A model generated the notes under the pieces. That model ran no database searches, was not told the DNA's origin, and saw nothing but the letters and a program-made list of their open reading frames with translations. Below are positions 1 through 32,173 of a DNA stretch of 35,458 nt, one piece after another; position 1 is the stretch's first letter; the number at the start of each line of letters is the position of its first letter. A program made the translations under genes and the position numbers. Origin of the DNA: a virus. The stretch lies in IMG/VR virus record IMGVR_UViG_3300038954_000315, positions 1-35,458 of that record; one strand, given 5' to 3'.

Positions 1-3000
1 GATCTGGCCCGCCCAGGAGCCGAGCGGCCCGAGCGAGTCTTGCATGGAGGAGGCCGTTTTTGCTGCCGCATTCTCGATTTCCGCGAACATGTTCCGCATC
101 TCTGCGGCCACCGTCCGGGCCACCTCTCGGTTTCGCTCCAGGTCCGCGCCCTCGGTGAACTCGGCGATAATATCTGCCATGTCCTCTGCGGCCAGGCCGC
201 CCGCCTCCGAGACCTTCCGGATGAACTCCTCCACATTGCCGGCGGCAACGTCTCGCATCATGTCGTAGAAATCGTCGATCTGCATTGCGCCCAGGAGCTG
301 ATTCATTATATTCTGGGTCTGCGCGCCGCCTGTGCTTTTCCGCCATTCCGAAAATTGCATGGACCCGCCCCCAGCCGTTGCTCCCATCCCAACGGGCAGT
401 GCAAAATTCTCGAAAAGGCTCCGATCCCGCATCACACTATCAGCAGACAACGGCTCACGAAGCCCTCGCCGGATGCTCGCTTGAGTCCACCGTCCCTCAC
501 CGCTCAAGATCGCCTGGGTATTTGCGCGAAGTTCCTCCGTATTTTTTGCAAGCTCCTCTTGCATTTTCCGGAGTTCTTCTCCCAAAAGGTCTCCGTAGGA
601 CGGGCCGTCGTCGCCGAAAAGACTTCCAGCTAAAGATGAAACCAACCCTGCACCAGCCGTGATAGCAGATAACCAACCAAAACCACTAAGCCCACCCCCG
701 GGTTTCGCACCACCAGGAAGTGCTCCTTCTATATCTGGTCCACTCTTAGTGAAAGCTCCAAGAATGCCTTGTAAACCTTCACCGCTAAGTAATTTGTCCA
801 TCGCAATTTGCGAAACAGTTTGTGACCAAATATCTATGAGAGAGTGCGAAAAAGACCGAAAATAATCTTCAAAGTCGTCAAGTTCACCTTTAAGAATATC
901 TCCAAGGACTTTAGATATGGAATTTTGTATATTATCTCTTGTATTTTCCCAGAGTTTATCGACCTTTTTGAGAGTCTCAAAATATTTATCGTATGCTCTG
1001 TCAAGTCCTCGTTGAAAAGTTGTTTCGTCGATAAAGCCTTTACGCAACAACACCCGAAGTTCACCTATCTCATCTTGAAGAACTTCAAATGGGGTGCGGA
1101 GGGATTTTGTTATAGAGGCTGCTCTACTTTTTAACTTTTTGTCTACTTCTTCAGATTTTTCTTTTAATTTATCAAAAGAAGCTATTAAATATTCCATCTC
1201 ATTTGAATCGGGGCCAACACTAGAAGGAAGTCCACCATACCATTCATCGGGTGTTTCTGATAAGGCGGACATGGTTTCCTTAAATTTTTCATTCGCGAAA
1301 GATAAGAAGTCGGATAAAACACCTTTAGCGGCTGCAAAATCACTTTTGATGATTTCTAGAAAAGTCTTCCCAAAATTTTCAAGACCTTCCGGGAGTTCGG
1401 CTACCCAATCTTTTAATGGATCTATATTTTTAGTTATATCTATACCTTCAATTTCTTTAGCTTTTTCAGCAAGTTTGTCGAGCATAGAGAACCCTGGCAC
1501 TAACTGATTAAGTCCAAAAGCTAAAGTGTCACTTACATCAAATTTTGATAAAAATCTTGCAACCGCTTTAAACTTTTCTAGTAAATATGTAAGTGCATCA
1601 TCTGCTGCAGTTTTTATATCTTGCCAGATGTCCCTAAACCAAGTAAACCATTTTGATATACTAATATTAAATATTTTTGCTAACGCTCTAAAAGCAGTTA
1701 CTAGACCATAAACAAGACCTACCCCAAGGGTTATAGGAGATATTAACAGAGAGAAGTTTTTTACGGTTTTTATAAGTGTCGAATTTAATCTTATAAACAA
1801 GTTTGTTATTAACTTTGTGACTTTTAATCCAACCATAGCTCCCTCAGCTATTAACAAGTAACGGACAAAAAGTTTTAACTCTGGTTTCAGGTTTTCTATG
1901 ACTACAGCAAATCTAGCTATACCTAAAACAAATCCTTCAACTGCTGAAAGCGCCTTGTCAAGTCCCCAGTTGATTTTTTCTAGCAACACAATAAACGCTT
2001 GCTGATTTCCTAAATCGTAGAACGCTTCGTTGACTTTTTGAATATGTTTATAAACTGTCTCTCCAAAAATATTCCCGACATTATTCCCTTCTGCCGCGAG
2101 GTTTTGAGCAGTAACAATAGCCTGTTGCATCGCAGCTTCCCAATTTCGCATAGCAGCAGTGACATTTCTCTTGAGCATTTCTTCTTGGACACGTTTGGCA
2201 GCATCACCTGTTTTTTCTAGAATCATTCGAACAATTTCTGCCTCGTCCCCGACACCTTTGAGCTTCTTTACTTCTTCATCACTTAACACTCCAATATTTT
2301 TTAGCATCCTGAGCATGGCGTTAGTAGCACGCATCTGACCTTCTAACAAACCCTGCCACTCACTTCTTATCTGTTTTATCGTGTTACCTGTGGATTTAGC
2401 GACTTGGACTAGCATATCATTAAAAGCCGCAAACTCGTCCATTTGCTCAGGCCCGATAAAAACACCATGCTGAGCAAGCTCACTATAGGCTGTGACTAGT
2501 TCTTCTATAGTGGAAACCGATTGGGTAGAAACTTTAGCGAGCGCGGCTGTATTTCCTGCGGCACGGTCTAAAGCGCCAGCGAAATCTTCAAGGCGCCCTG
2601 TAGTCATTGTGTAATATCCGGCTAGCTCAGCTTGAAGCGCGGATAATTCCCCCGAAGCAAGAATGGCTTCTCGAAAAATTTCTACTGTTTCGTAAAGAAC
2701 ATTTTCAAGTGCGTTCATTGCTCGATAGGCGACAGTGAAACCTATAGCGACTGCACCAAATCTCTGCCACCATGTATCAAGAATACCACTAAACTCTCGA
2801 CCTGATCTTGTGGTACGTCTAGTAGTGCGATCAAATTTCTTCAATCGCCTATCTGCAGCGTTAATTTCCTTTCCTAGTTGGTCAAATTGCTCCTCGGTGA
2901 TATTTCCTTCGTGTCGCAGTTTCTTTAACTCAGTGTAAGTCCCGGAGACGGCTTTTCTATACTCTTTCATCTCCAGGTCAGACATTTTAGCGAAGTCTTT

Positions 3001-3483
3001 TCCTCCACGAATAGTGGATAGTCCTCGCATTAACTTTTCTGTCTTTTTTAACTCATCATTGAATTCCTTAATCTTAGATTCGCTTCCAAATCTTTTGACC
3101 TCGTTAGCAGTTAGTTTTACCTGTTGGCGGAGCTTTGTTCCCTCTAGACCTAATTTCCCGAATTTTTTCTGTACACGGTCGATTCTAGGTGCCAAATTAG
3201 ATATTTTTGTTGTTATATCGCTTAACGCTTTTTCTTGGCCTGGGAATGGTGAGCGACGTTTTAACTCTCGAAATTCTTTGTTGAGCTGTTGATACTCTGC
3301 GCGGAGGATTTTTACATGATCTGGGAGCTTCTTGGCGTGAGAAAGAGCTCCAGCGAAAGCACTAGAGCTCGATTTTGAAATGTCTCTAAATCCGTCGTCT
3401 ATTCTCGAAAGACTTTCGTTAACTTGACGAATTCCCCGCTTAAAGGCATCAAGTTGGAGTTCTAGTTCTACCTGTTTTTTCAC
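1..3483 (-). CDS. Tail tape measure protein (partial, C-terminus outside window)
   Basis: The reading frame is open from a GTG at 3483 to the left edge, giving at least 1161 residues and no stop, so the C-terminus is missing. Tape measure proteins line the tail tube, set its length and help DNA ejection. The call rests on length, position directly after the frameshifted chaperone pair, a charged helical N-terminal half (residues about 1-230), and hydrophobic stretches near residues 240-260 and 540-590. A Gly/Ala-rich segment (residues about 910-960) is followed by a helical tail. The GTG start is supported by AAAGAGG six bases upstream and an in-frame TAA just before it. It overlaps the end of the chaperone frame by 35 bases. 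The leftmost 640 bases are markedly GC-richer than the rest of the gene, suggesting a mosaic exchange inside it. I am confident of the class because of context, less so of exact boundaries of domains. Confidence 0.87.
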   Translation of the reverse strand, partial: MKKQVELELQLDAFKRGIRQVNESLSRIDDGFRDISKSSSSAFAGALSHAKKLPDHVKILRAEYQQLNKEFRELKRRSPFPGQEKALSDITTKISNLAPRIDRVQKKFGKLGLEGTKLRQQVKLTANEVKRFGSESKIKEFNDELKKTEKLMRGLSTIRGGKDFAKMSDLEMKEYRKAVSGTYTELKKLRHEGNITEEQFDQLGKEINAADRRLKKFDRTTRRTTRSGREFSGILDTWWQRFGAVAIGFTVAYRAMNALENVLYETVEIFREAILASGELSALQAELAGYYTMTTGRLEDFAGALDRAAGNTAALAKVSTQSVSTIEELVTAYSELAQHGVFIGPEQMDEFAAFNDMLVQVAKSTGNTIKQIRSEWQGLLEGQMRATNAMLRMLKNIGVLSDEEVKKLKGVGDEAEIVRMILEKTGDAAKRVQEEMLKRNVTAAMRNWEAAMQQAIVTAQNLAAEGNNVGNIFGETVYKHIQKVNEAFYDLGNQQAFIVLLEKINWGLDKALSAVEGFVLGIARFAVVIENLKPELKLFVRYLLIAEGAMVGLKVTKLITNLFIRLNSTLIKTVKNFSLLISPITLGVGLVYGLVTAFRALAKIFNISISKWFTWFRDIWQDIKTAADDALTYLLEKFKAVARFLSKFDVSDTLAFGLNQLVPGFSMLDKLAEKAKEIEGIDITKNIDPLKDWVAELPEGLENFGKTFLEIIKSDFAAAKGVLSDFLSFANEKFKETMSALSETPDEWYGGLPSSVGPDSNEMEYLIASFDKLKEKSEEVDKKLKSRAASITKSLRTPFEVLQDEIGELRVLLRKGFIDETTFQRGLDRAYDKYFETLKKVDKLWENTRDNIQNSISKVLGDILKGELDDFEDYFRSFSHSLIDIWSQTVSQIAMDKLLSGEGLQGILGAFTKSGPDIEGALPGGAKPGGGLSGFGWLSAITAGAGLVSSLAGSLFGDDGPSYGDLLGEELRKMQEELAKNTEELRANTQAILSGEGRWTQASIRRGLREPLSADSVMRDRSLFENFALPVGMGATAGGGSMQFSEWRKSTGGAQTQNIMNQLLGAMQIDDFYDMMRDVAAGNVEEFIRKVSEAGGLAAEDMADIIAEFTEGADLERNREVARTVAAEMRNMFAEIENAAAKTASSMQDSLGPLGSWAGQI

Positions 3484-4023
3484 CTGTAGCCTCTTTAAAC
3501 AAAGCGTTTAATTCGTTTTCATAAAACCCTTCTGTGTAGGGTCCATGAATCTTGAGAGCTTTGTCAATATCGGATTTAGACTTACTTAAATTCCATGCCT
3601 TGCCAGTGCAAAGCATGTTTAGCGTTCTTTGACGTTCTGCTTCGTTGTAAAGAATTTGTAGTTTTTCATCTGGTAACTTTAAAACTTCGAAGATGTCTAC
3701 ATGTAGTTGATTAGCGACTGATCCAGCCTTCTTGAGACGTGTTACTGATCGTCCCGAGAAGGCTGTGGGAACAAATTTTCCATAATATGAGAGATAATAC
3801 CGGAGGTGGCAGCAAATCCATAACCTTCAAGGTCTTTCTCAGAACATCCCAGAAGTGTTCTAAGCCCTGCTTTGTGATCTTCCTGATCTTTCGAATCGAA
3901 TAGTTCTCTAACTTCGTAAGGTACATCCTTTACAATGAACTCTTTTTGTCCAATTTTTATAGTAACGGCGAGTTCACTAAGATACTGATCTACGTCAAAA
4001 ACTTTACTTTTCTTTTCGTTCAT
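3449..4023 (-). CDS. Tail assembly chaperone gpGT, made by -1 frameshift
   Basis: The first frame (next entry) and a second frame ending with TGA at 3449-3451 are joined by a -1 slip at the heptamer A AAT TTG (3772-3778). The fused product would have about 191 residues: 84 codons of the first frame and 107 from the second, beginning VPTAFSGRS. The second frame has no ribosome binding site of its own at its junction and continues without stops through residues such as KLPDEKLQILYNEAE to its end inside the tape measure start. In lambda-like tails, G and GT proteins bind the tape measure protein and recruit tail tube subunits; they are not in the finished virion. The position between the tail tube genes and the tape measure gene is the standard one. 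The slip itself is inferred from frame layout and the slippery motif. Confidence 0.75.
3742..4023 (-). CDS. Tail assembly chaperone gpG (unshifted product)
   Basis: A 93-residue acidic protein, starting MNEKKSKVFDVDQYL and ending PSRDDQ. The start at 4023 is chosen over an upstream in-frame start at 4065 because AAGGAG lies seven bases before it and the longer version would run into the preceding tail gene. By position it is the lambda gpG-type chaperone that coats the tape measure protein during tail assembly. The slippery A AAT TTG lies nine codons before the stop, so most ribosomes should make this short form and a minority the GT fusion. No sequence motif identifies the family directly; the call depends on position, size and the frameshift arrangement. 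Confidence 0.75.
   Translation of the reverse strand: MNEKKSKVFDVDQYLSELAVTIKIGQKEFIVKDVPYEVRELFDSKDQEDHKAGLRTLLGCSEKDLEGYGFAATSGIISHIMENLFPQPSRDDQ
3772..3778 (-). promoter_or_regulatory. Programmed -1 frameshift slippery site
   Basis: Read on the minus strand the site is A AAT TTG in the phase X XXY YYZ relative to the chaperone frame, which is the canonical arrangement for tandem -1 slippage. Slipping here connects the first chaperone frame to the downstream frame with an exact whole number of codons. The zero-frame stop (TAA, 3742-3744) follows about 30 bases later. I did not find an obvious strong stimulatory hairpin by eye. Confidence 0.7.
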
Positions 4024-4033
4024 CTGTTTCTCC

Positions 4034-4414
4034 TTAAGCAATGTTAATAATGTTACCACTATCATTAGGTGTGAAAATTAGCCTCACGTTTATCGGCTGC
4101 TGTTCGTTTGTGCCTAGCGTCATATTATCTAAATTTAGCAAAATTTTACACTTATACAAAGTGATTGTCGCGTTTGTTGTAGTGATAACCACCTCTCCGA
4201 AAGCGTAGAGTTCTAAATCGCTTCCTATTGTAACACCTGACCACTTATAAAAACGAAATGTGCCTTCGCCACCATAAACTACAGGCGTTGGATCATAATC
4301 ATTTGAAACTTCAGCCTTGTCTTTATGGAGGAGGCGTAAAGTGCCCCCTCCATAAGTTTTTCCTAAATCACTACCACCGTGAGTGATAGTTGCTGGACCA
4401 CACAAATAAAACAT
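4034..4414 (-). CDS. Tail protein, paralogue of the tail tube protein
   Basis: A 126-residue protein whose N-terminus (GPATITHGGSDLGKTYGG) closely mirrors that of its upstream neighbour (SPCQVSYKGSDLGKTQGG), so the two genes look like a tandem duplication that then diverged. The rest is beta-rich with many Thr, Ile and Gly, as expected for a tail tube or tube-capping fold. It starts with ATG overlapping the upstream stop by one base (TGATG), implying translational coupling. A plausible role is a minor tail tube or tube-initiator subunit. The exact role cannot be decided from sequence. Confidence 0.6.
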   Translation of the reverse strand: MFYLCGPATITHGGSDLGKTYGGGTLRLLHKDKAEVSNDYDPTPVVYGGEGTFRFYKWSGVTIGSDLELYAFGEVVITTTNATITLYKCKILLNLDNMTLGTNEQQPINVRLIFTPNDSGNIINIA

Positions 4415-4917
4415 CAGGTGACACTAGTTTTTCCGAATGTGGCTACCTTACCATTAGAATCAGCATAAGCTGTAGCCTCAAATGAAATTACTCGCTGGTT
4501 GCTCATATCATAAGCCATTTCGGCTGTGGCTTTAATACCAGCATTGTGAAGAGTAATCCATTTATTTTCGTCGGTAGTAACTGATCCGTTTACGTAAGGC
4601 TTAATAATTAATTCGCCACCATTGTCAAGCAGAGAGGTTCCTACATTCGTGTTAATCTGAACTTTTTCGTCATCCCCGTCAGTAACACGTGTTTCATTCA
4701 TAATGATAGCAATATTAGCCAAAGTAATATCCGCAAGGTTGCCAGAGACCGTGACAGTTGTTCCAGTGAGCTGTTCATCCACAGGAACCTCGCCATCTTG
4801 ATCGGTATGCAGGGTTACTGAATTCTGGTTCATAGAAACAGTAAGGCCGCCCTGCGTTTTGCCTAAGTCACTACCTTTGTAAGAAACCTGACAGGGACTA
4901 AGTTGATAGTCAGCCAT
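4414..4917 (-). CDS. Major tail tube protein
   Basis: A 167-residue, beta-rich protein with the pattern VSYKGSDLGKTQGG near the N-terminus, followed by a segment (residues about 30-60) rich in Asp and Thr. This form is typical of phage major tail proteins, in which a hexameric tube is built around the tape measure. Its location between the tail terminator candidate and the chaperone pair supports this. AGGAGG lies five to six bases before the ATG, one of the strongest ribosome binding sites in the tail module, fitting a protein needed in many copies. Family membership is inferred from pattern and position, not from a catalytic motif. Confidence 0.72.
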   Translation of the reverse strand: MADYQLSPCQVSYKGSDLGKTQGGLTVSMNQNSVTLHTDQDGEVPVDEQLTGTTVTVSGNLADITLANIAIIMNETRVTDGDDEKVQINTNVGTSLLDNGGELIIKPYVNGSVTTDENKWITLHNAGIKATAEMAYDMSNQRVISFEATAYADSNGKVATFGKTSVT

Positions 4918-4925
4918 TGTTCCTC

Positions 4926-5294
4926 CTATAAAGTATCATAGTCATAATTTACCTTGATTTCTATACAAAAAACGAAACGGTTGTTTTCGTCTTTTCCAAG
5001 GTCTTCGGTTTCAATCGGACCTGATATAGTCCAAGTCCCATCTACTGTTCCACGCTTGTTATTAAACAAGTTGATTAATTCGTATGTTTTCGTCCTTGTG
5101 GTTATATAATCAAAATAGGCTACTAAAATTCTTATTATTGTAGCCCACATTGGCGTGTGTTCTGCAAAAATTGTTCTTCCTACAACTACGATACCTTCAT
5201 CGACTTCATTGACAAAATATTGAAGAAACAAATCTGTACCTGTGGAATGTGTTGTATTAGAAGCAATATATTCCGCGACAGTTTCTTCAATCAT
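4926..5294 (-). CDS. Tail terminator-like protein
   Basis: A 122-residue acidic protein directly upstream of the tail tube gene. In siphophage modules this slot is usually held by the tail terminator (lambda gpU type), which caps the tube and joins it to the neck. The sequence shows an N-terminal helix (MIEETVAEYIASNT) and then beta-strands around FVNEVDEGIVVVGRTIF, compatible with that alpha/beta fold. The ATG overlaps the stop of the upstream gene (ATGA), so translation is coupled. No diagnostic motif is visible, so this is a positional assignment. Confidence 0.5.
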   Translation of the reverse strand: MIEETVAEYIASNTTHSTGTDLFLQYFVNEVDEGIVVVGRTIFAEHTPMWATIIRILVAYFDYITTRTKTYELINLFNNKRGTVDGTWTISGPIETEDLGKDENNRFVFCIEIKVNYDYDTL

Positions 5295-5734
5295 TTATAG
5301 TTCCTGTTCCACCAATCATCTACGGCAAGGTCAATTGCAGTCTCGATGTCGTGGCGTGTAGGGTAGACTTCAAAAAATTCCTCAAGATTAATTTCAGCGT
5401 AGTCAAATATAAGCGAATATCCTTCACCATACGCTTTTTTCATAGACCAAACAAAAATGATTTCGTTTCTTGCACCGCTCGGTTTAGCGCCTTTATAAAA
5501 TGGCCCTATAATTTTCCTTTCTCCTACATAAGCCGCCCCATGAGCTTTTAAATGCCATTTACCTGTGGTGCGTGTGTAAATTTTTCTTGGATCACGCGTT
5601 TTTCTTGATTCGTCATAGGGAAAGTCGGGGGCGTTTTTTAATTCTCTGTAGAGGTATTTAGCTACAAATTCGAGGATAAACTGTTCTTCTCGTGGTGGAA
5701 GCTCTATCGTTACTTTACCAGTATGTTCAGACAT
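5291..5734 (-). CDS. Neck / tail-completion protein (HK97 gp10-like position)
   Basis: A 147-residue basic protein with a helical N-terminus and conserved-looking segments GKWHLKAHGAAYVGERKI and YSLIFDYAEINLEEFF. Position and size match the tail-completion or neck protein class that acts between connector and tail terminator. AGAGGC lies seven bases before the ATG. It overlaps the next gene by four bases (ATGA). The function is inferred from gene order only. Confidence 0.45.
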   Translation of the reverse strand: MSEHTGKVTIELPPREEQFILEFVAKYLYRELKNAPDFPYDESRKTRDPRKIYTRTTGKWHLKAHGAAYVGERKIIGPFYKGAKPSGARNEIIFVWSMKKAYGEGYSLIFDYAEINLEEFFEVYPTRHDIETAIDLAVDDWWNRNYK

Positions 5735-6029
5735 AAATAGCCTCTACATGGTGAAAAGCGCCATCACGAGCATAAAATCTATCCCAATCAACGAAATCAT
5801 GCCGTGTACTCCCACTCATCCAATAACAGTTAGTTAAATCAACATCATTTGCAAGAAAAACCAGTCCATCTCCTAGTTTTTCTGATACTGTGTGACCTTC
5901 TCTGTGAGTTAAAGACCTGACAACAACTTCTTCAAGCCACACATCATAAGAACCTAGAGAAGTTGTCGTTTTTTGATGCTTCCAGTTTACAGTTTCTCTG
6001 ATGATAGTGATTGTTTTGTTAGTTCTCAT
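5727..6029 (-). CDS. Head closure-like protein
   Basis: A 100-residue protein, mostly beta-strand by composition (ITIIRETVNW, DVWLEEVVVRSL, VSEKLGDGLVFLA). Head-closure or stopper proteins of siphophages are short beta-barrels encoded just after the connector adaptor gene, which is where this lies. It overlaps the upstream adaptor gene by 11 bases and the downstream neck gene by eight. Its own Shine-Dalgarno sequence is weak, so expression is probably coupled. Assigned by position. Confidence 0.45.
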   Translation of the reverse strand: MRTNKTITIIRETVNWKHQKTTTSLGSYDVWLEEVVVRSLTHREGHTVSEKLGDGLVFLANDVDLTNCYWMSGSTRHDFVDWDRFYARDGAFHHVEAIYV

Positions 6030-6348
6030 CAGAAGTAAACTTCCAACGGTCTATATTTTGATGATCGTCTCGTTCATCTGATGTACTGGAGATTTTACCA
6101 GCATTGACCGTCATTGCGTATTCTTTGTATATTTTGTTGTAGAATTCGTATTTCTGTGATAAGTTTTCGTAAGTTTTTCCCATACGATAAGTCGGCTGGA
6201 ATTTCTTGCGTAGTAAATCAAACGCCTTCAAACCAGCCAAACTTATCTGGGAAGATGTGTAAGCGGAAGTCAGGTGTGTGATCTCTGTGGAAGTGAGATC
6301 ATCATAAGCCTGACTTCCGATTTCTAGTAATAATTCACTTTCTAGCAT
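6019..6348 (-). CDS. Head-tail connector adaptor protein
   Basis: A 109-residue helical protein immediately downstream of the major capsid gene. The N-terminal part (MLESELLLEIGSQAYDDLTS) and later helices resemble the small helical adaptors of the HK97 gp6 or SPP1 gp15 type, which dock under the portal and extend the channel. The ATG shares bases with the stop of the capsid gene (TAATG). No motif proves the family, but the size, helicity and gene order all agree. Confidence 0.55.
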   Translation of the reverse strand: MLESELLLEIGSQAYDDLTSTEITHLTSAYTSSQISLAGLKAFDLLRKKFQPTYRMGKTYENLSQKYEFYNKIYKEYAMTVNAGKISSTSDERDDHQNIDRWKFTSDEN

Positions 6349-7277
6349 TATGCAATCACATCGTAAGCATAAAGGCCAAGATCGCTAGCCAAAAGTACCG
6401 GATCGGCTTTAATCTTCGCTTCAATCCGCAACGAATTATTCAACCACGGCATGTCGATCCGCTGGGTGCCTATATTTGTCCCATCCTGACCTTTATAAGT
6501 CAAGAAATACCCTGCGGAGGGTTTAAACTTGCTTGGGTTATCCGGTGTATAGATAAGCAAGAATTTTTTGCTGGACATGAACCCTGTAGCACCTGAGTTA
6601 ATGGTGTCAAGCACAGTGATCTGATCTAGTTCGAACAACCGTGCCATGAGATTCATTGTCACAACTTTATCGTCCGTAGTTTTCATTTTTCCTGTAATAT
6701 CTGTGTTAGTCTTGAGTGTCCTATACACATCAGGTGTCGTGATCGCACGGTTAGGTGAAAATCCAGTAGTCTTGAGAACATCTTCCTTCCATCCCAAAAC
6801 ATCTGAAACTGGAGTAGAGCTACTGTCGCTCCATTGAGTGAAATCGCTAGAACCCTGTTTATCCGTCCCCCACACACCAGAGGTAAGATATTCAGAGTTA
6901 AGCTCCGAGGTAAGAATCCGACTAAGCCGATTTACGACAAATTGGACAGCATCACGGACAGGATCATAAGGATTGTCATATTCAGCTACATCATCTGAAG
7001 AAACATCTTTATGAAAAGCATACTCAATGAGCGTGTATGCCTGAGAGCTGACCGCGTAATCATCGCCACGAGACTCTACAGAGCCCTGGCGCATATAATC
7101 GGTTACTGTTCCAATATAGTACCAGTCTTCCTTGTCGTATTTAGCAATATATCCCGAAAACCGTGCGGTGTTGATTTGCGGGAATACTCTAAAGGCAGGG
7201 ATGCCGGACTCTTGGACGTACTTGTTCGCTACATCTCGAACAAATTGTTCTTTAATTACATCACCCCAGTAAGGCAT
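6348..7277 (-). CDS. Major capsid protein (HK97 fold)
   Basis: A 309-residue protein in the standard slot between decoration protein and connector. It has a helical N-terminal arm (GDVIKEQFVRDVANKYVQES) and long mixed segments. The terminal segment (LRIEAKIKADPVLLASDLG) resembles the P-domain end of HK97-fold capsid proteins in phages with DUF935-type portals and S49-type proteases. A strong AAGGAGG lies about four bases before the ATG. Unlike HK97 itself there is no long N-terminal delta domain; scaffolding is probably supplied by the nested product of the protease gene upstream. Confidence 0.8.
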   Translation of the reverse strand: MPYWGDVIKEQFVRDVANKYVQESGIPAFRVFPQINTARFSGYIAKYDKEDWYYIGTVTDYMRQGSVESRGDDYAVSSQAYTLIEYAFHKDVSSDDVAEYDNPYDPVRDAVQFVVNRLSRILTSELNSEYLTSGVWGTDKQGSSDFTQWSDSSSTPVSDVLGWKEDVLKTTGFSPNRAITTPDVYRTLKTNTDITGKMKTTDDKVVTMNLMARLFELDQITVLDTINSGATGFMSSKKFLLIYTPDNPSKFKPSAGYFLTYKGQDGTNIGTQRIDMPWLNNSLRIEAKIKADPVLLASDLGLYAYDVIA

Positions 7278-7286
7278 AATCCCTCC

Positions 7287-16901: not shown

Positions 16902-17067
16902 TATTCCTGAAAACCTCCAAGGTAGCGTACACAACTGAAAAAACACCAACAACAGGCCAAAAAATTCCCAATACAAAGCAAGGAATGCCACCGCCTTCTA
17001 ATTCATATAAAAAACAAGTAAAAACAAAAAGACCTGTGAAATAAAGCAGCAAGACTAGATAAATCAT
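16894..17067 (-). CDS. Small two-helix membrane protein (57 aa)
   Basis: A 57-residue protein starting MIYLVLLLYFTGLFVFT, with two strongly hydrophobic segments (residues 2-18 and about 31-50) separated by a short loop with ELEGGG. The ATG at 17067 overlaps the stop of the ParB-methyltransferase gene (ATGA) and has GGAGG about seven bases upstream. Its end overlaps the polymerase start by eight bases. It is therefore a real link in this operon. The function is unknown; a holin-like role is possible by shape only, but its place among replication genes argues against calling it that. Confidence 0.6.
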   Translation of the reverse strand: MIYLVLLLYFTGLFVFTCFLYELEGGGIPCFVLGIFWPVVGVFSVVYATLEVFRNNA

Positions 17068-18341
17068 TTCTTTTCCTCCAACCACTTCATAGTGAAACTT
17101 TTCCCATCTTCTATATTAGCCTCATATTTTTCACAGCCTATCCAACGACGTTTTGTTAGAAATGCCGCACGAAGAGAAGATAGACCTCCAGCAAAACCAT
17201 CAAAAACAAGATCTGCTTCGTTAGAAAATATTTTCATAAATTCTACTATAAGCGACTCCGGCATCTGTGCTCTGTGGATACGATCTTTTCTGACTATTTC
17301 ATGCGGAAAATAATTAGCACATCCCTTAATGGATAACTCTGGATTACCTTTCCAAGCCAAAACAGCAAATTGTGTAGCACTCCCGGGTTTGAGATGCGGT
17401 TGTTTTGTTTTTCCAGCTGTTCCCATTTTTACCCAAATAAGCGGTATGGCCGATGTTTTGAAACCAGAATCATGTAACCACGTTCTTATTTCCGCGAAAA
17501 GGTTAAAATCGCACCACATGACCATATATTTATTGTTTTTGAGTACCCTGTATAAATGGGGGATAATCGTTTTTAGGAGGGAAATAATTTCTTCTGGTTC
17601 ATCGTCATAAGGTATGTCATAATAATCGGTGTCGAGAAGTTTATCGTAATTTATAGCGAACGGGGGGTCGATAAAGATGAAATCGATTAATTCGTCTTCC
17701 AATTGTGGGAGGTACTTTTCAATAGGAGAAGCAGTTACATTTGAGAAATATTTTTCTATGTTACCGGTATATTTAACTTTTTTGGCTTTTGTTTTTCTTA
17801 CAATGTCAAGCGCGAAGTTCTCGTTTTCTCTTTTTATCCTATTGAGACACTCTGTGATGGTTGTACAATCTTTGACGAGATGAAGATTTTCATTGATAAG
17901 TAACATTCGTGATACATAAGAAACATCACGTCCTATTCGCTTTGCCGTGTGTGATAAAGACCAACCTTCTGTCACATTGCCTTGTATAGCTTTACCGTGG
18001 TGTTTGATTCCTTGAGTATGGATGTCTTTAATTAGACAAGATTTTTCTTGCACTGTAAAATCCTCTCGATGGTCATTTTCTTCTAACTGAGAGACTAAAG
18101 CATCGACAGAAGGATTTATGATGAAATGTTTACCTTGTTCAAGTTCTGTATAGCCACAAAAATCTCGTAAAGCTCGAAGCCTTCGACGACCTGCACAAAC
18201 CTCAAAACCTTTAGGAGTTTGTTTTACTAGAATAGGTTGATGCAGACCTGTGTTTCTGATAGAAACGCCCAAATTTGTTATGTCAGTTTCTTCAAAACGG
18301 TAATCACTTTCTACGTAGAACTGTTCTATAGGAATCTTCAT
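17064..18341 (-). CDS. ParB-like domain fused to DNA methyltransferase
   Basis: A 425-residue protein. Residues 1-70 are a ParB/Srx-type domain with the CAGRRRLRALRD box (49-60). Residues 125-150 form a helix-turn-helix (SLSHTAKRIGRDVSYVSRM) as in ParB. Residues 215-425 are an N4/N6 DNA methyltransferase with FIDPPF (motif IV, 224-228) before DLVFDGFAGGLSS (motif I, about 377-389), the order of beta-class enzymes. It probably methylates phage DNA at sites chosen with help of the HTH, or protects it from restriction. The start at 18341 has GGAGC five bases upstream. A terminator lies just upstream, so it may have its own promoter or depend on read-through. Confidence 0.82.
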   Translation of the reverse strand: MKIPIEQFYVESDYRFEETDITNLGVSIRNTGLHQPILVKQTPKGFEVCAGRRRLRALRDFCGYTELEQGKHFIINPSVDALVSQLEENDHREDFTVQEKSCLIKDIHTQGIKHHGKAIQGNVTEGWSLSHTAKRIGRDVSYVSRMLLINENLHLVKDCTTITECLNRIKRENENFALDIVRKTKAKKVKYTGNIEKYFSNVTASPIEKYLPQLEDELIDFIFIDPPFAINYDKLLDTDYYDIPYDDEPEEIISLLKTIIPHLYRVLKNNKYMVMWCDFNLFAEIRTWLHDSGFKTSAIPLIWVKMGTAGKTKQPHLKPGSATQFAVLAWKGNPELSIKGCANYFPHEIVRKDRIHRAQMPESLIVEFMKIFSNEADLVFDGFAGGLSSLRAAFLTKRRWIGCEKYEANIEDGKSFTMKWLEEKK

Positions 18342-18351
18342 GACTAGCTCC

Positions 18352-18391
18352 AAAAAATAAACCACTCCCCACCAAGAAGGTGAAGAGTGGT
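18352..18391 (-). terminator. Rho-independent terminator
   Basis: On the minus strand a stem ACCACTC ... GAGTGGT (7 bp, arms at 18361-18367 and 18385-18391) is followed by TTATTTTTT. It lies 11 bases after the DUF669-like gene and 11 bases before the ParB-methyltransferase start, so it would end the recombination operon. Confidence 0.85.
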
Positions 18392-30534: not shown

Positions 30535-30921
30535 CTACACGACTTCAACGTCTTTTTCTTCGGCGAGTTTTACTATCTTTACTTCCCCGACTATATCGCC
30601 TGGGTGTATAGTAAATTCACCACCACCTAGATTACACAAAACAAGTTTAACTTCGCCATAATTTTCTTTTGTTAATGTTGTGGGGTTTAAGAGGATAATC
30701 CCATGTTTAGACGCAAGTCCAGAACGACCTGAAATCTCGACACCAAAACTTCCCTCGATAAAAATTTCTATCCCTACTGGGACAAGAAGCCTAGGCACCG
30801 AAAATCCTATCCCGCCAAAAACGCTAGACAAGGTGACCGGTTCGTAGATCGCAGCTCGGAGCTGGAAGATATTTGAGATTTTTCCTCCTTGATAATTAGG
30901 TAGTTTCTTTATTTTTATCAT
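30535..30921 (-). CDS. dUTPase-fold protein, probably catalytically dead
   Basis: A 128-residue protein with clear trimeric dUTPase/dCTP deaminase-type features: LLVPVGIEIFI (45-55), GRSGLASKHGI (65-75, the motif 2 Ser-containing loop) and LCNLGGGEFTIHPGDIVGEV (95-114, motif 4-like). However, motif 1 (usually AGYDL) reads GGIGF, and motif 3 (usually G-V-I-D-x-D-Y-R-G-E) reads TTLTKENYGE, so both key Asp residues are missing. There is no motif 5. It may bind nucleotides or proteins rather than hydrolyse dUTP. The polymerase in this phage carries a UDG-like domain, which makes the uracil theme interesting. It overlaps no gene; its ribosome binding site is weak. Confidence 0.65.
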   Translation of the reverse strand: MIKIKKLPNYQGGKISNIFQLRAAIYEPVTLSSVFGGIGFSVPRLLVPVGIEIFIEGSFGVEISGRSGLASKHGIILLNPTTLTKENYGEVKLVLCNLGGGEFTIHPGDIVGEVKIVKLAEEKDVEVV

Positions 30922-30922
30922 A

Positions 30923-32143
30923 TTATAATCTCTTCTCGATAAGTTTTGCTAACATTTCCGATTGCTGAGCTTCAAATTCTCGAGTGCAATCCCCCGCGTT
31001 ACTAGCTATGTGCGCTAGTTCGTGAGCTATTGCAGTGATTCTCTCTAATCTTTTCCCCGGCAAAGTCAAATTATCGTTTATCCATATTTCATTTCGTCCT
31101 GCCTGACCTTCTGGAGCTTCATTGAAGTTTTTGAAGAAGCGAACCTTAGCTGTCACATTCAACAAATCTTGAATTTTGGCGCCCTCTTCATAAAACTTCT
31201 TGTCAGGAAATGTTTCAACGAACGAGTCTTTAGTCTCAACAACTTCTTCAGCTTTTTGTATTCTTAGCTTGTCGAAATCAAGGCTTATAGGTACTGGATA
31301 ATACCCTTTAGCATACGCTGTTTGGTTAATCGCTTGATTTCGACTTGCGATTACTGCTTTATCACCATACTTATTATAAAATACTTCTTTATAGATTTCC
31401 CGTGATGTATCTTTAAGATGGTATGGTGTTAGGAAGCATTTTGTTTCAAACAAATTAGAGTTCTCGAACATTTTTTCTATAGCTTCCCTTCCTGGAGGTT
31501 GGTCAGAGAGAAAATTACCTACATTCCAGCGTACATCCCAGGGGTTTATTATAGACCTATCTCTATTCATATTCCCGATATGTAAATTCCAGTCGAATAG
31601 TGCTTCTTCTTCCCTTTCTTCTACGAAAACACCTTTATTGTATATTCTGAGGGCGTTTTTGTTGTACTTTGGGAGCATAGTTTTGGTTGCGTCACAAAAT
31701 CTTCCCTCGATGATATTGGAGATATTGTGGAGTTTTATATCTACAACACATCCTTCTTTACCTTTACGTCGCGCGTCTATATTAGCGTGGAGAACCCGTT
31801 CTAGAAGTCCTTCGACATGAAGCAAAGCAAAGGTTAGAGTTCCTTTAGGCGTCTTTGCGACTAAAGAACCTCCCATCCGAGTCGCTACCAGGGCGGCTAA
31901 CTTAAACCCCTCCCCGAATTGGCCTATCTTGGATTCATCGTGCATCTTTGTAGATGCACCGATAGTCATTAATTCTGCGAAAGATGGAGAGGCGCTTGTA
32001 GATACCCGTAAATGATCTCCGGCTAGCTTTACTATTTTATAACTTCCCGTATCCATAGCGTTGCAAATAACTTCCCTGGCCACTTCCCATTCTTTCCATT
32101 CTAGTACGTAGTTTTCGCTTATATTCATATTAACTGTAGGCAT
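30923..32143 (-). CDS. GHKL ATPase fused to HExxH domain
   Basis: A 406-residue protein. Residues 1-110 show GHKL (Hsp90/MORC/rIIA-type) features: N box EVICNAMD (24-31, with Glu24, Asn28, Asp31) and IGASTK (61-66) with GQFGEGFK (74-81), as in MORC and rIIA-like ATPases. The DxGxG box is not obvious in the usual form (the segment LAGDHLRVST lies there). Residues about 300-406 carry HELAH (374-378) with acidic residues downstream (DCTREFEAQ, 385-393), the pattern of a minimal zinc metallopeptidase. The middle 190 residues have no recognised motif. AGGAGA lies nine bases before the ATG. Function unknown; T4 rIIA, a GHKL protein, is involved in exclusion-related processes, so a host-takeover role is possible. 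Confidence 0.72.
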   Translation of the reverse strand: MPTVNMNISENYVLEWKEWEVAREVICNAMDTGSYKIVKLAGDHLRVSTSASPSFAELMTIGASTKMHDESKIGQFGEGFKLAALVATRMGGSLVAKTPKGTLTFALLHVEGLLERVLHANIDARRKGKEGCVVDIKLHNISNIIEGRFCDATKTMLPKYNKNALRIYNKGVFVEEREEEALFDWNLHIGNMNRDRSIINPWDVRWNVGNFLSDQPPGREAIEKMFENSNLFETKCFLTPYHLKDTSREIYKEVFYNKYGDKAVIASRNQAINQTAYAKGYYPVPISLDFDKLRIQKAEEVVETKDSFVETFPDKKFYEEGAKIQDLLNVTAKVRFFKNFNEAPEGQAGRNEIWINDNLTLPGKRLERITAIAHELAHIASNAGDCTREFEAQQSEMLAKLIEKRL

Positions 32144-32173
32144 CTTTTTATTCTCCTATATAAAGATTAACTT

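Follow-up and report, generated by a model that had tools for sequence, protein, structure and literature searches.

Among described GHKL proteins, MORC, topoisomerase VI-B and Hsp90 share a Bergerat-type fold, an ExxxN motif, a glycine lid and a transducer-like region, and the base-contacting Asp of GHKL enzymes has been established for Hsp90, MutL and GyrB. The DNA-protein-crosslink proteases Wss1 (WLM) and SPRTN (SprT-like) combine a zincin core and HExxH with His as the third metal ligand. A published classification places Wss1 and Spartan among the minigluzincins, and DNA activates Wss1 (PMC4559962). The minigluzincins proabylysin, projannalysin and selecase are free-standing small peptidases. 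T4 RIIA, a poorly understood phage factor of 725 aa, has an N-terminal GHKL domain, and one published account describes RIIA proteins as GHKL proteins whose C-termini vary and whose part in counter-defence is poorly understood (PMC7824862). ArdC, a mobile-element protein, joins an ssDNA-binding domain to a C-terminal metalloprotease domain, and its antirestriction activity is independent of the protease site (PMC7213743).

Here we analyze a 406-aa ORF product of virus record IMGVR_UViG_3300038954_000315, the whole of which (35,458 bases) is referred to as the window. The protein has the same GHKL module and transducer as the short PHROG 6077 proteins of phages such as phiTE, 4MG and VPMS1, and a zincin-like domain is fused to its C terminus (Table 1). 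Each half is a known fold; the pairing is apparently undescribed, since we found no published account of a GHKL-zincin fusion, or of a permuted Bergerat fold, in the open-access literature. We file the protein as a divergent GHKL homologue with a zincin-fold domain, and not as a member of MORC, RIIA, Wss1 or SPRTN, because one defining GHKL box and the third His of Wss1 and SPRTN are absent. As its best explanation we tentatively favor, at a little short of an even chance, a nucleotide-gated clamp carrying a protease that would act on DNA-bound proteins.

All ten large genes scanned in the window lie on the strand of the GHKL-zincin gene. Tail tape measure, capsid, protease, portal and terminase genes occupy 1 to 12 kb, genes for a primase, PolA, a ParB-methyltransferase, a Sak4-like protein and a helicase follow at 13 to 24 kb, and small ORFs continue to 35 kb. 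Transcription would reach the GHKL-zincin gene before the replication genes, and, judging from gene order alone, it would be an early gene. Next downstream is a gene for a dUTPase-family protein, whose start adjoins the stop of the GHKL-zincin gene; the two are possibly translationally coupled. Elsewhere in the window, the ParB-like domain is fused to the DNA methyltransferase in a single protein.

Table 1. Features of the window and of related loci (L numbers). Positions in the upper rows refer to the window and residue numbers to the 406-aa protein; gene starts at contig loci were assigned by ORF.
Feature	Positions	Strand	Basis
CDS, GHKL-transducer-zincin protein, 406 aa, ATG start	30923..32143	-	ORF; phrog_6077, 5.9e-38; AlphaFold2 pLDDT 92.5
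Ribosome-binding site AGGAG, 9 nt before ATG	32153..32157	-	Sequence
GHKL (Bergerat-type) module, residues 1-140	31724..32143	-	Topoisomerase VI-B profile, 9e-6; Foldseek MORC2, 4.2e-6
N-box E24-VIC-N28-AM-D31 (EVICNAMD, residues 24-31)	32051..32074	-	E24 101/101, N28 99/101
Place of G1 box (DxGxG), here T49-S-A-S-P53; base-contacting Asp lost	31985..31999	-	Column comparison
G2 box and ATP lid, residues 62-81 (GASTK...GQFGEGFK)	31901..31960	-	G74, E78, G79 invariant
Transducer-like and linker region, residues 141-300	31244..31723	-	Collinear with PHROG 8203 family, 4e-15
R194-D195-R196, candidate phosphate-sensing motif of transducer	31556..31564	-	Invariant, 101/101
Zincin-like domain, residues 312-406	30926..31210	-	Foldseek minigluzincins, prob 1.00; family HMM to Wss1, SPRTN
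HELAH 374-378, predicted metal-binding and catalytic motif	31010..31024	-	Sequence; kept in 31/34
D385, likely third metal ligand	30989..30991	-	Conserved with HExxH across sub-types
dUTPase-family gene	30535..30921	-	PF00692, 1.9e-6, above gathering
ParB-like domain fused to DNA methyltransferase	17064..18365	-	phrog_67 and several ParB-like profiles
Alkaliphilus plasmid protein, L016	5961..9275		
Aneurinibacillus plasmid, L099 (same locus as L017)	1100..1561 and 4186..7284		
DprA-associated locus L102	3290..4360		
DprA-associated locus L018	3891..4739		
DprA-associated loci L104, L105, L108, L113			
Permuted member L154	3001..4647		
Permuted member L012 (YuA gp29)	2462..3640		
Permuted member L013	2330..3640		
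Permuted members L014, L015 and relatives L155-L173			

Because single-sequence searches (Pfam, and phmmer against PDB) gave weak or spurious matches only, with Pfam matches of the window protein below gathering in both halves, family profiles were used instead. A profile built from a 55-sequence alignment matched the PDB sequences of topoisomerase VI-B (9e-6) and MORC4 (0.003), and several relatives score above Pfam gathering for HATPase_c_3 or HATPase_c. The phrog_6077 family, of unknown function, covers residues 3-341 of the window protein (profile positions 3-358 of 366). AlphaFold2 modeled the protein with a mean pLDDT of 92.5, a pTM of 0.76 and no residue below 50. Searched against PDB with Foldseek, the ATPase half hit MORC2 with DNA (4.2e-6), topoisomerase VI-B, Hsp90 and GyrB, and TRAP1 was also among the fold matches. 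A preliminary description of the gene had proposed a GHKL-type N terminus from EVICNAMD, IGASTK and GQFGEGFK and a metallopeptidase-like C terminus from HELAH. The ORF and all of these motifs are real, with IGASTK at residues 61-66 and GQFGEGFK at 74-81, and the profile, the model and the structural search agree on the N-terminal assignment. The window protein differs from MORC, topoisomerase VI-B and Hsp90 in having Thr for the base-contacting Asp, a fused zincin and none of their accessory domains; no separate DNA-binding domain was identified in it.

On the phosphate side the ATPase half is essentially invariant. E24, G74, E78, G79 and R194-D195-R196 are invariant across 101 sequences, and N28 and K81 are nearly so. 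The fold, the ExxxN N-box and the G2 glycine box with its lid are thus present in the window protein, and the DxGxG box, already described as not evident in the preliminary description, is indeed absent: residues 49, 51 and 53 are T, A and P, compared with D, G and G in bacterial and several phage relatives. At residue 49, 11 of 13 clade-A sequences (bacteria, the Moorella phage and others) have D, all 5 window-clade members T, all 16 clade-B sequences N or S, and all 67 short forms S, N or T. Since most clade-A relatives keep the Asp, we read its absence as a lineage-specific change in which the phosphate side is retained, and not as a sign of a wrong fold; because the box was not found, we speak of a divergent GHKL homologue and not of a proven GHKL ATPase. 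The combination of T, N or S at residue 49 with invariant E24 makes a changed nucleotide specificity possible, and with Thr in place of the base-contacting Asp the base specificity of hydrolysis is perhaps altered in the window protein.

The same column could mean that the window protein has decayed into a scaffold, nucleotide binding having been lost with the Asp. Thr in every window-clade member would fit, as would the additional loss of HExxH in one of them (L024). However, E24, N28, D31, G74, E78, G79, K81 and R194-D195-R196 are fully kept in this clade, which would be unexpected after loss of catalysis, and the presence of N, S or T in all short phage forms marks the change as old and stable. 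We regard decay as distinctly improbable.

In the C-terminal half, AlphaFold2 predicts a helix (315-328), strands at 333-338, 346-348 and 352-356, the HExxH helix (365-381) and a last helix (388-405). The closest solved folds in Foldseek searches against PDB are the minigluzincins proabylysin, selecase and projannalysin (prob 1.00, TMt about 0.5-0.61), whose glutamate-helix motif is not clearly matched in the window protein. A profile of the C-terminal domains alone reached Wss1 (0.0012), abylysin (0.004) and SPRTN (0.007); Pfam SprT-like and WLM matched 14/30 and 8/30 members' C-terminal domains, weakly, and no WLM or SprT-like match of the window protein exceeded the family cut-off. The metallo-protease family phrog_87 matches residues 329-388 weakly. 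A chance HELAH in a protein with no metalloprotease-like domain would be in keeping with the single-sequence Pfam Peptidase_M78 match, which is not significant, but this reading is refuted by the family-wide conservation of the motif and the fold match, and we give it practically no weight; the metallopeptidase-like C terminus of the preliminary description holds. A clustering of the HELAH residues and an ATP pocket in the N terminus are suggested indirectly, through the matched folds and the predicted secondary structure. With Wss1 and SPRTN the domain shares the zincin core, HExxH and a candidate metal ligand where the second helix begins. It differs from them in having Asp in most members (D385 in the window protein) where their third ligand is His, in scoring below cut-offs and in having an ATPase in cis.

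HExxH is complete in 31 of the 34 sequences that have the C-terminal region. The exceptions are L063 (EELAH, with D385 replaced by N), the window-clade member L024 (HExxH gone, D385 replaced by H) and L082 (HExxH gone, a D nominally aligned at 385). Three acidic residues follow HELAH in the window protein: D385, E389 and E391. Our best guess for the third metal ligand is D385, because it is conserved across all sub-types and changed in L063 and L024. E391, which comes after a conserved F in clade A, and H390 in clade B remain alternative candidates. We rejected E389 and E391 as third ligands for the family as a whole, since L002, L103, L117, L123 and the permuted family have T, Q, N, T and R, respectively, after the conserved F. 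Only L086, which carries HEMCHAEYPGHG, has a His at the third-ligand place, at Wss1-like spacing.

The GHKL-zincin pair is an old, widespread and recurrent architecture in phages, bacteria and archaea. The full form occurs in the cultured phages Moorella MTATph1 (CDS0173, with HETLH and a retained DDGPG) and Exiguobacterium EalM-132 (EalM132_00137, with HETIH), and among non-redundant viral-contig sequences a C-terminal HExxH or EExxH is present in 24 and absent in 77, in collections that may omit close relatives of the window virus. Plasmid homologues range from a protein with one ATPase unit in Streptomyces and one with a degenerate zincin in Kitasatospora to proteins of the Bacillota Alkaliphilus and Aneurinibacillus in which three tandem ATPase units precede one zincin. 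Such an intramolecular repeat of GHKL-transducer units, as in the Alkaliphilus protein, is unusual for a GHKL protein. On the Aneurinibacillus plasmid a break at the glycine box (profile 82/83) divides the first of the three units in two, and a group II intron reverse transcriptase gene lies between the pieces. Chromosomes and MAGs with the fusion include several genera of Micromonosporaceae, Desulfofundulus, Aerophobetes and a Bacillota MAG (two units), and a Woesearchaeota homologue has a more distant ATPase and HELGH. A sample of 121 Micromonosporaceae genomes yielded 9 with a match, one of them through a C-terminal fragment only; in this family the gene is accessory and patchy, not core. 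Public records name the relatives hypothetical protein, HATPase, chaperon protein or RIIA lysis inhibitor, and in one YuA-type phage hydrolase/metallopeptidase. The preliminary description knew of no characterized phage protein with this pair, and the open-access literature searched bears this out; the pair is, however, not peculiar to one phage but recurrent and probably ancestral, its spread taking in phages, plasmids, bacterial chromosomes and archaea.

PHROG 8203 (L009, L154 and relatives, YuA gp29, AH02 and huge phages) has the ATPase, transducer and zincin parts in another order. In L154, canonical profile positions 43-125 match 3-57 (1.7e-12) and positions 1-42 match 106-122 (2e-5), followed by the transducer region at 179-321 (4e-15) and the zincin at 352-454 (1.8e-9). 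The break in AH02 falls at profile 43/44, with 44-109 at residues 53-117 and 1-43 at 133-173. The order of strands and helices in an AlphaFold2 model of L154 (pLDDT 84) corresponds to a permutation, and Foldseek matched this model to Hsp90-family chains. Profile order and model thus indicate that the GHKL module alone is circularly permuted in PHROG 8203, the rest being collinear. The order of the profile segments also ruled out that L009 is a truncated ATPase. In YuA gp29, AH02 and L014 the motif reads EExxH, not HExxH, and their protease site is probably dead for this reason.

We mapped presence of the fusion onto an unrooted tree of 101 rows, 32 of them fused, which came from a quick search and was restricted to the columns of the ATPase and transducer. 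The fused/unfused label changes 3 times, compared with 27.4 for shuffles, and none of 500 shuffles was as low. Unlike the window protein, all 67 sampled short forms of PHROG 6077 lack the zincin domain, and they form one clade (SH-aLRT 98); the remaining two rows labeled unfused, L024 and L082, keep a C-terminal region. The simplest reading is an ancestral fusion with one major loss, giving the common short phage form, a direction that is a judgment on an unrooted tree and is favored because fused forms occur in bacteria, archaea, plasmids and the permuted family. A zincin split off as a separate gene was considered for the short clade and rejected, as the fetched flanks of short-form loci contain no zincin ORF.

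Proteolysis appears to be dispensable in some lineages, because the zincin was lost in the 67-row clade and HExxH is degraded or replaced by EExxH elsewhere. Optional proteolysis leaves room for a counter-defence factor like rIIA or ArdC, in which the GHKL clamp would do the work by binding DNA or a host factor and the C-terminal domain would be a target-binding arm, with binding more important than cutting and a protease site of little or no matter. RIIA proteins are structural neighbors (1e-8 to 1e-7) with a GHKL domain and variable C-termini, and ArdC, which has an ssDNA-binding domain where the window protein has an ATPase, likewise pairs a nucleic-acid module with a metalloprotease domain whose active site is not needed. 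Yet lineages that have diverged widely, bacteria among them, keep the complete HExxH and D385, which speaks for selection on catalysis in those lineages. Neither PADLOC nor known anti-defence proteins gave a match for the window protein, and relatives gave weak matches to TmtA and DrmB. T4 RIIA, whose C-terminal part is different, was matched over 96 GHKL-core columns only, at a probability of 56%, and filing the window protein as RIIA was rejected on this ground. A counter-defence role of this kind is in our view unlikely, though it deserves to be taken seriously.

The annotated neighbors of fused viral genes are helicases, a topoisomerase, thymidylate synthases, a Ku-like protein, a primase, RNA ligases and a methyltransferase, with no virion protein among the 25 families shown. 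There is no conserved phage gene neighborhood, as no neighbor family occurs in more than two members. The GHKL-zincin gene of six actinobacterial loci is preceded, at a distance of up to about 2 kb, by a DprA homologue, and at L102, L108 and L113 an ORF judged by eye to be ComM/YifB-like is also nearby. The neighbors of the viral genes bear on whether the protein is an Hsp90-type protease-chaperone for maturation or quality control, whose ATPase would remodel phage or host proteins and whose zincin would trim them, with no relation to DNA. Chaperone-protease pairs that serve virion maturation are indeed encoded by phages (PMC7824862), and Hsp90 and TRAP1 are among the fold matches. However, the genes lie beside DNA metabolism and not virion genes, actinobacterial chromosomes carry homologues without a virion role, and among solved GHKL structures MORC2 with DNA and topoisomerase VI-B match most closely, so that a protease-chaperone seems to us improbable.

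For the nucleotide-gated clamp that we prefer, binding of nucleotide would make the GHKL module and transducer dimerize and close, in the manner of MORC, topoisomerase VI-B and Hsp90, and proteins held by the closed clamp would be cut by the minigluzincin/Wss1/SPRTN-like zincin. The likeliest substrates would be proteins located on DNA, either roadblocks or crosslinks on phage DNA during its replication or DNA-bound factors of the host with a defence or regulatory role; we propose them because of the likeness to MORC2 with DNA and topoisomerase VI-B, the likeness to Wss1 and SPRTN and the DNA-metabolism neighbors. The homology of both halves, the predicted fold, the old fusion, the joint conservation of HExxH and D385 and the invariant phosphate-side residues speak for this reading as well. 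Against it stand the loss of the Asp in the window clade and most phage members, the window protein's Pfam matches below gathering in both halves, the Asp at the place of the third His of Wss1 and SPRTN, the lack of an identifiable separate DNA-binding domain, the missing zincin of the 67-row clade, the degraded HExxH of L024, L063 and L082, the EExxH of YuA gp29, AH02 and L014, and the antirestriction activity of ArdC, which is independent of its protease site. The architecture is well supported; dimerization, DNA binding, nucleotide hydrolysis, proteolysis and the identity of the substrate, and so activity and target, are what we infer. A bolder version, which we hold to be possible but on the unlikely side, is that the family represents a new class of nucleotide-gated protease, old and also found in permuted form, in which a GHKL clamp and not an AAA+ motor would pass DNA-bound proteins to a zincin in cis; T, N or S for Asp in most phage lineages, together with the retained phosphate-side residues, would then suggest that the base is recognized less strictly or that the nucleotide is not ATP.

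To our knowledge, energy-dependent proteases are nearly all AAA+ machines. If the proposal is true, a nucleotide switch would here be coupled to proteolysis by a different route, through a GHKL clamp joined to a protease fold of the DNA-repair type. PHROG 6077 and PHROG 8203, both listed as of unknown function, gain a common architecture and an evolutionary direction. The cultured phages MTATph1, EalM-132 and the YuA group put function within reach of direct genetics, for which the natural active-site losses and the circular permutation are built-in controls.
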